From: Synergistaceae bacterium
Lineage (GTDB): Bacteria > Synergistota > Synergistia > Synergistales > Aminobacteriaceae
Direction: 5' to 3'
Length of the DNA stretch: 55,454 nt
NCBI GenBank assembly: GCA_031272145.1
Contig: JAISUL010000080.1
Location: forward strand, 1-55,454
In this document: piece by piece, positions 50,715-52,285 of the stretch
Layout of the letters: each line of letters starts with the position of its first letter
Numbering within the stretch: position 1 is the first letter of the stretch
The notes under the pieces: model-generated
Database searches by the model: none
What the model was told of the DNA's origin: nothing
Seen by the model: only the letters and a program-made list of their open reading frames with translations
Position numbers and translations under genes: made by a program

Positions 50715-52285
50715 TTATACCCCGTCAGCGTTTAGAAACTTAGTAACCACACCGCTCAAAAACGCACCCAGATTTTCCTTTGAAACCACACTTACATTGC
50801 CCCTCTCGCTTTCGACCATGTCGGTCAAGGTCTCCCCGTCAAGCGCGACGCGCTCGTCGAGCATAGCGGAGTAAGGCGCTGGCGAGAGCGGGTACCGGCC
50901 AGGCAGCACGTCCCAACAGCTCATGTTCTCGCCCTTGTTCGGCAGAACGGACGTATAGAACAGCTTGCTCAAGACGCCCAACGCAAAAACTCTCTCTCTC
51001 GCTCTCTCTCTCTCTCTCTCTCTCTCTCTCTCTCTCTCTCTCTCTTCAGCACTGGCAGCAGCCTATCGCGAAGCCGCCTCTGTCTTACGAACTCCGACGG
51101 CGAGTAGTCGCGCAACATCACTAGCGTCTTCCCGCAGACCTGAAACTCCGGCAGCAGGGACTCGCATACCAGATCGTACATGGGATCGTATATGGCGGCA
51201 GTGAATATTATAGCGGGGTTGAAAGCACGCAACGCCTGCGCAATCTCCAGACAGAAACGCGCAGGACCGTAGTCGCGAAAATAGGGGAAGAAAAGGTACA
51301 CCTGCGATAGCGGGATTTCGTCCTCCTCGGGGCTATTTGCAAATGCCATCACTTTACGCCCCGCACCTATGCTCGTAAACCACGAGAATGGCAATTCCCC
51401 GATGCGCAAGGATGGGTCGCTTTCCGCCTTGTACAAGCACCAGAGGTTCAGCAGCCACTCCCCATAGCACATCGAACGCGTAATGTAGCCCATGTCGGTC
51501 GGTTGAAGCGCCTTGCCTATGTGCGAATTAGCTTTCTTGACGAGATCGCGAATACGCTCTTCGTGTACTTTTTGGAAGCGCCGTTTGAGCTCGAACATCA
51601 CGTCAAACATCCACTCGCAAAACTCCGTCCAGAGGTCAGCGCGCATTATATGTAATGTGCACGGATGCATCCTCTCGGCCTTGAGCAGTGTCTCAAACAC
51701 TCCGCGCGAGATAAGACCCTCTTCGCCAATTACCGACCATATCTCATTGAAGAATGTATCATCAATACATGCGTAAGTATTATAATAGAGGGACATAGGC
51801 TCTACGCCAGTAAGCCCGCCCTCCGCCACGCCCAGCACGATGTCGTATTTATCGCAGGCGTCGCGCACCGCTTCGTCGATCTCGTCGGAGATGAGGCGCG
51901 AAATGGGCGAAGTCTTAAACCCCCACTTCAGCTTGCGCATCATGGCGGCTTCGCGGTCTACCCATCTCTCGACCTTGTGTCCAGTCGCGTATGAGAGGCC
52001 GAGCAAGCGGCGGTAGTGGCACAGACCGATGTAGTCAGGAGTTTTCCCACCGCCGAGGAGCTCAGGATTTTTCCACGCCCAATATGACGCTGTGACCTCG
52101 CAGAACAGGCCGTTGAGATCGGATATGTTGTCCCCTGTGTCATCGCCTGGCATGTCGGCGAGACGCCGCCGGACGTTCTCTGAAGCGCCTGCCCGGCCCA
52201 CGTGGACAGGGAACAGCACGTCGGAGCGAAAACGCGGCGTGTCCTGATTGTAGCAAACCATGAGCTTGATGTTCTTCTTGTTCAA
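50715..52285 (-). CDS. DUF4422 glycosyltransferase-like protein interrupted by an AG repeat, OFF as read
   Basis: The N-terminal part is a DUF4422 domain: GDDTGDNISDLNGLFCEVTA (GDNIS 51-55), YWAWKN and YIGLCHYRRLLG (HYRR 90-93), the family's glycosyltransferase-like signature. As read, the frame runs through (AG)22 as an Arg-Glu run and stops at 50969 after 438 residues. Loss of one AG unit (or gain of two) would carry it on through ALGVLSKLFYTSVLPNKGE to 50715, about 522 residues. The TTG 52285 start has a G-rich site eight bases upstream. It is probably a phase-variable or C-terminally switchable glycan enzyme. Confidence 0.78.
50991..51045 (-). repeat. Dinucleotide repeat, (AG)22 plus interrupted (GA)5
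   Basis: Twenty-two uninterrupted CT units on the plus strand (51002-51045), one G, then five more TC units (50991-51000). Within the coding sense this is AG/GA. A tract this long is expected to slip readily. Confidence 0.95.

Follow-up and report, generated by a model that had tools for sequence, protein, structure and literature searches.

The AG tract in a DUF4422 gene

We focused on a gene on the minus strand of the window, as we call the whole 55,454-nucleotide stretch of Synergistaceae bacterium DNA analyzed here. The gene, its repeat and its surroundings comprise the following features.

50969-52285, minus strand: assembled open reading frame of 438 amino acids (aa), with a TTG start and a TGA stop at 50969-50971; DUF4422 (GT111), half of a second domain and an (RE)n tail
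51569-52267, minus strand: DUF4422 domain (residues 7-239), putative galactofuranosyltransferase; Pfam PF14393, E 2.5e-34; PDB 6u4b (WbbM), E 2.3e-17
51371-52285, minus strand: region aligned to the stand-alone 281-aa DUF4422 protein of the metagenome-assembled genome (MAG) Pc512_bin126, 50% identity
51044-51328, minus strand: N-terminal half of the second (C) domain (residues 320-414), 40% identical to a 209-aa homolog across 95 aa, E 1e-17
50990-51045, minus (coding) strand: AG tract, (AG)22, C, (GA)5G; Arg-Glu repeats in every frame
50985-50989, minus strand: TTTTT run immediately 3' to the tract, a flank that recurs at AG tracts of this genome
50715-50981, minus strand: remaining half of the C domain, translated in the 522-aa phase alone; 50% identical to the same homolog across 86 aa (E 3e-27); profile E 7.7e-31
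49474-50661, minus strand: next gene, CBS domain plus methyltransferase-like
52478-53851, minus strand: UDP-glucose/GDP-mannose dehydrogenase, upstream neighbor, surface-polysaccharide context; Pfam PF03721, E 6e-40
53959-53977, minus strand: (AT)9.5 tract, second candidate switch two genes upstream, inside a methyltransferase gene (53855-54706)

Read on the coding strand, the tract consists of an uninterrupted (AG)22 at 51002-51045, a single C at 51001 and GAGAGAGAGAG at 50990-51000, which adds 5.5 further GA units. A 16-bp AG run has 15 overlapping matches in the window, compared with 0.00 expected from 100 dinucleotide shuffles of the window. As a non-triplet tandem repeat inside a coding region, (AG)22 has the property by which SSR translational phase-variable loci are recognized. 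Since AG encodes only Arg and Glu whatever the frame, no phase terminates within the run, and the computed products for 19, 20, 21, 22, 23, 24 and 25 units are 436, 480, 522, 438, 482, 524 and 440 aa long, respectively. The original prediction gave 438 residues for the assembled copy and 522 after loss of one unit, and both figures are right (22 versus 21 units, although the count may be inexact, given that the genome is a fragmented assembly); the tract has, however, three coding states with a period of three units, not two. The tract lies late in the gene, at residue ∼414 of ∼522, and the Pfam match to DUF4422 is entirely upstream of it, so that the domain is whole in every product, as had been claimed for two of them. 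With a late repeat and a main domain kept in all frames, the gene has the layout expected for C-terminal phase variation.

The significant matches to the family and to its characterized member, WbbM (best over residues 5-105), assign the gene by homology to DUF4422/GT111. The N-terminal domain of WbbM is a UDP-Galf transferase of family GT111 (PMC12269835), and we regard the window gene as a putative UDP-Galf transferase. Its DUF4422 portion ends at residues ∼239 to 305. Stand-alone DUF4422 proteins, one in Pc512_bin126 (G022) and two encoded on another contig of the genome under study (G000:C33), end about where the second domain of the window gene begins. Given that the two parts are separate proteins in Pc512_bin126, the DUF4422 part probably folds on its own. 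The two additional DUF4422 genes at G000:C33 adjoin a gene for UDP-galactopyranose mutase (glf), an indirect hint at UDP-Galf transfer; glf is not adjacent to the window gene itself. Between two DUF4422 genes of that contig (L051, 3013-3059) there is also an AG tract, located ∼37 bp before one of the start codons and with its purine strand opposite the genes.

The neighborhood of the window gene is a surface-sugar locus, with a sugar-nucleotide dehydrogenase, methyltransferases, a radical SAM protein and glycosyltransferases. A CBS-methyltransferase gene, like the one next to the window gene, also comes after a C-domain gene in Pc512_bin126 (L009). The (AT)9.5 tract of the upstream methyltransferase gene encodes YIYIYI and is presently in frame (ON), and its other phases would truncate or alter the C terminus of that protein.

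A second domain divided by the tract

The segment at 50715-50981 had been taken for an alternative C-terminal tail. It is indeed open in the needed frame (open frame 50718-50999) and homologous to a real protein, but instead of a tail it matches the second half of a conserved domain of ∼190 aa, the first half of which (residues ∼320 to 414) lies upstream of the tract. A homolog in which this C-terminal segment is uninterrupted was sought and found in the 209-aa protein of the Synergistaceae MAG Pc512_bin126, to which both halves align; the segment, for which the lack of any counterpart among homologs would speak against a switch, thus has an intact one. These matches indicate that the window gene encodes DUF4422 fused to a small conserved domain that is split by the AG tract, and that one of the three frames is predicted to give a full-length homologous product.

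In Pc512_bin126, the nearest relative that has the gene, the gene order is DUF4422 (281 aa), the 209-aa C-domain protein and glf, the first two being separately encoded with an overlap of 25 bases. The same MAG contains two further C-domain relatives, a 238-aa stand-alone protein and the C terminus of a large protein. Among 185 Synergistota genomes, a profile search detected the C domain only in the window genome (two halves) and in Pc512_bin126 (whole), and a search of GTDB genomes that extended beyond the phylum, with two short patterns as the query, found only Pc512_bin126. There was no match on plasmids, and none in sequence searches of Pfam, NCBIfam and PDB. Foldseek, run with a low-confidence model, returned an unrelated receptor as the best match (E 2e-3), followed by GT9, starch synthase and other GT-B folds (E 0.03 to 0.1); none of these fold matches is significant. 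The model of the 209-aa homolog shows alternating strands and helices and places the tract site at residues ∼111 to 114, near the loop that joins helix 92-110 to strand 115-121; this position is approximate because the model is weak (pLDDT 51). The model of the 438-aa form (pLDDT 42) was too poor for use, except for its helical RE tail. The second domain may be a Rossmann-like accessory or glycosyltransferase domain. The orthologous site in Pc512_bin126 reads GGAAAGAGCGTTTGTC (residues T-E-R-A-F), which is a plausible seed for (AG)n.

We consider it very likely that the window gene is an SSR contingency gene, in which slippage-driven switching completes or breaks a second domain behind an intact DUF4422. 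We infer that, in living cells, slipped-strand mispairing of the AG tract at replication would alter the number of units. In one phase out of three (21 or 24 units), the two halves of the second domain would be joined via an Arg-Glu linker into the fusion of ∼522 aa, while in the other two phases DUF4422 would stay whole and the second domain would be destroyed, the protein ending either in the RE helix plus 6 residues (438 aa, 22 units) or in 50 unrelated residues (482 aa, 23 units). As assembled, the gene stands in a broken phase. Given that AG encodes only Arg and Glu and that the tract lies near a helix/strand loop, the in-frame fusion plausibly tolerates a range of tract lengths. The most likely outcome would be cell-to-cell variation of a galactofuranose-containing surface glycan, through a repeat switch that acts on a domain of a putative galactofuranosyltransferase rather than on the whole gene.

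The original prediction favored an effect on localization or specificity over simple on/off control. Localization finds no support. Between a change of specificity, with the short form still working as a transferase, and an on/off loss, with the short form dead, the odds appear about even. Plain on/off control, in which the 522-aa form alone would be stable or active while those of 438 and 482 aa would misfold because they end in half a domain, has in our estimate somewhat less than an even chance; it agrees with the domain-level reading on the switch itself and differs only in what becomes of the short forms. In its favor, the tract interrupts a conserved domain midway, the half-domain of the 438-aa form could trigger degradation of the whole protein, and many other AG-tract genes encode single-domain enzymes that a wrong phase would simply inactivate. 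The occurrence of DUF4422 as a stand-alone protein in Pc512_bin126 and twice at G000:C33 argues against it, since a domain found in this form probably folds alone.

The separate genes of Pc512_bin126, with their overlapping ends, are also compatible with re-initiation in the short phase at a TTG that overlaps the TGA stop (TTGA), so that the second half would be made as a separate chain of ∼84 aa and complement in trans. Given that TTG is a weak start and that one half of a Rossmann-like domain would hardly fold by itself, we regard this as very improbable. That a frameshift in a slippery repeat left a pseudogene without any reversible switch also seems unlikely, if less so. The assembled copy is out of frame, and signs of decay exist nearby, namely, an internally deleted FkbM-like gene (47629-48462) and a frame-split GT4 gene (314-1214). 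However, the second half of the C domain is still 50% identical to its homolog and its frame is open, free of further lesions, and the ∼43 tracts of the genome, with random phase and some in-frame copies, point to maintained switches.

AG tracts across the genome

The window gene would be one member of a genome-wide AG phasome. In this single draft genome, which was read as stretches around the tracts, ∼43 AG tracts reach a length of 14 bp or more; an anchored AG pattern finds 21 of these, compared with 0 to 2 per genome in 148 relatives. Twenty-three tract genes have a Pfam match, and in all 23 the purine strand is the coding one. They comprise GT8 (5), GT1, GT2 (2), GT56-like, FkbM (5), radical SAM (2) and DUF268 (2) genes, together with genes for MBOAT, an asparagine-synthase-like protein, Methyltransf_24, DUF4422 and type I HsdS. 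Judged by these families, the tract-bearing genes appear mostly to decorate the cell surface, through glycosyltransferases, FkbM methyltransferases and radical-SAM proteins. The type I HsdS gene (L076, G000:C97) carries its AG tract at 3010-3039, between the two target-recognition domains, making it a possible phase-variable specificity subunit.

For the 21 tracts that have an open frame of more than 60 aa on each side, the offsets that fuse the two frames (0/+1/-1) number 6/7/8, i.e., 6 are in frame and 15 are out, as expected of random phase. Paralogous FkbM genes have the tract at one and the same site, with lengths of 28, 36, 38 and 56 bp and differing phases, which we take as comparative evidence that tract lengths change. 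Draft assemblies commonly have short-repeat errors, and several tracts lie near contig ends, both of which would fit an assembly or sequencing artifact. Even so, such an origin is extremely unlikely: at many loci the sequences on either side of the tract, itself 20 to 62 bp long, are two halves from a single gene family; the relatives, many of them also fragmented, have no more than two tracts each by the same pattern; and the motif on the 3' side recurs consistently. A loss of mismatch repair was rejected as an explanation for the long tracts, given that MutS and MutL genes are both present, above the family cutoffs. None of the literature searched, which covered the field in part, describes a large dinucleotide phasome of this scale in Synergistota; here it occurs in a genome with both genes. 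The AG tracts themselves represent, as judged from their sequences, SSR phase variation of a known kind.

Six genes of this genome start with a common promoter-leader of ∼80 bp, composed of TTGACA, a GCACGCCCGGCGTGC palindrome within the -35/-10 spacer, TATAGT, GGAAGGAG and then ATG-(GA)n, with a repeat of 28 to 45 bp immediately after the ATG. The copies are located at L046 (C8:3400-3482 and 2138-2219), L073, L069, L075 and L060, with GT8 and GT2 glycosyltransferase genes among them, and a partial copy lies at C8:841-889. No shared promoter module was found within the window.

The tracts share a flank on their 3' side. TTT occurs within 6 nucleotides 3' of 31 of 42 tracts, compared with 3% of control AGAG sites (binomial ∼1e-38, a value that is overstated because paralogs are not independent). 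About three quarters of the tracts have a flank of the form (C/A/AA)TTT(Y) (loci L045 to L077; 50985-50989 in the window). An AG run followed by HTTY occurs 26 times in the genome, compared with 4 occurrences of the reversed control; none of 184 other genomes has it more than once. The T-run is not a general neighbor of short AG runs, since it follows 3 to 5% of those of 4 to 7 bp versus 72% of tracts of at least 25 bp. A protein-level signal was discarded because the frame relative to the T-run varies among genes; as the pattern holds across reading frames, the flank is a feature of the DNA. Fold-back templating was rejected as the origin of the T-run: position 1 matches the mirrored tract base, but position 3, opposite G, is always T, which gives no perfect complement. 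A dedicated process that recognizes the (AG)n-YTTTY junction and places or maintains tracts, and through which this lineage would have equipped dozens of unrelated surface genes with one and the same switch, is a speculative idea to which we give little probability. If true, it would explain both why the 3' flank is constant across genes and frames and why tracts of intermediate length are nearly absent from the stretches read. The common T-run offers a testable handle on the birth of such tracts.

Known repeat switches and further repeats in the window

SSR phase variation, AG-repeat switching (PMC3498834) and C-terminal switching (PMC2823697) are all known. The AG loci resemble the SSR contingency loci of Neisseria, Haemophilus, Campylobacter and Helicobacter in having a non-triplet coding repeat, frames open on both sides, random phases and surface-glycan genes. 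They differ in that an AG dinucleotide on the coding strand dominates here, whereas poly-G or tetranucleotides do so there, and in that they belong to Synergistota and share a 3' TTT flank. In the C-terminal phase variation of Helicobacter canadensis, a late repeat changes the C terminus while expression continues, and in HCAN_0660/0661 the repeat merges two reading frames (PMC2823697). Those tracts are poly-G and mostly change a few residues, whereas in the window gene a conserved second domain would be completed or broken. The type III methyltransferase of Mycoplasma mycoides shares with the window gene an (AG)n located in the coding region; its own repeat is in frame at 10 units and out of frame at 12 (PMC3498834). 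It differs in being a single DNA methyltransferase with a shorter tract and simple on/off control. WbbM of Klebsiella pneumoniae O2a (PDB 6u4b) likewise combines an N-terminal DUF4422 (GT111) with a second domain in one chain. This second domain is a GT8 Galp transferase, while that of the window gene matches no Pfam or NCBIfam family, and a repeat switch is not described for WbbM in the same paper (PMC12269835).

Other repeats lie elsewhere in the window. A (GGCAC)9.6 repeat at 19641-19688 directly follows a TATAAT-like box, in the apparent 5' untranslated region of an FkbM methyltransferase gene (19738-20685, plus strand). At 1337-1371, (GGCGACC)5 is located at the apparent 5' end of a minus-strand coding region for a GT4 glycosyltransferase, where it throws the nearest ATG out of frame; this gene is split again near 650. 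The FkbM paralog at 47629-48462, which belongs to the tract-bearing family, has apparently lost the tract site together with ∼130 aa around it through an in-frame deletion.
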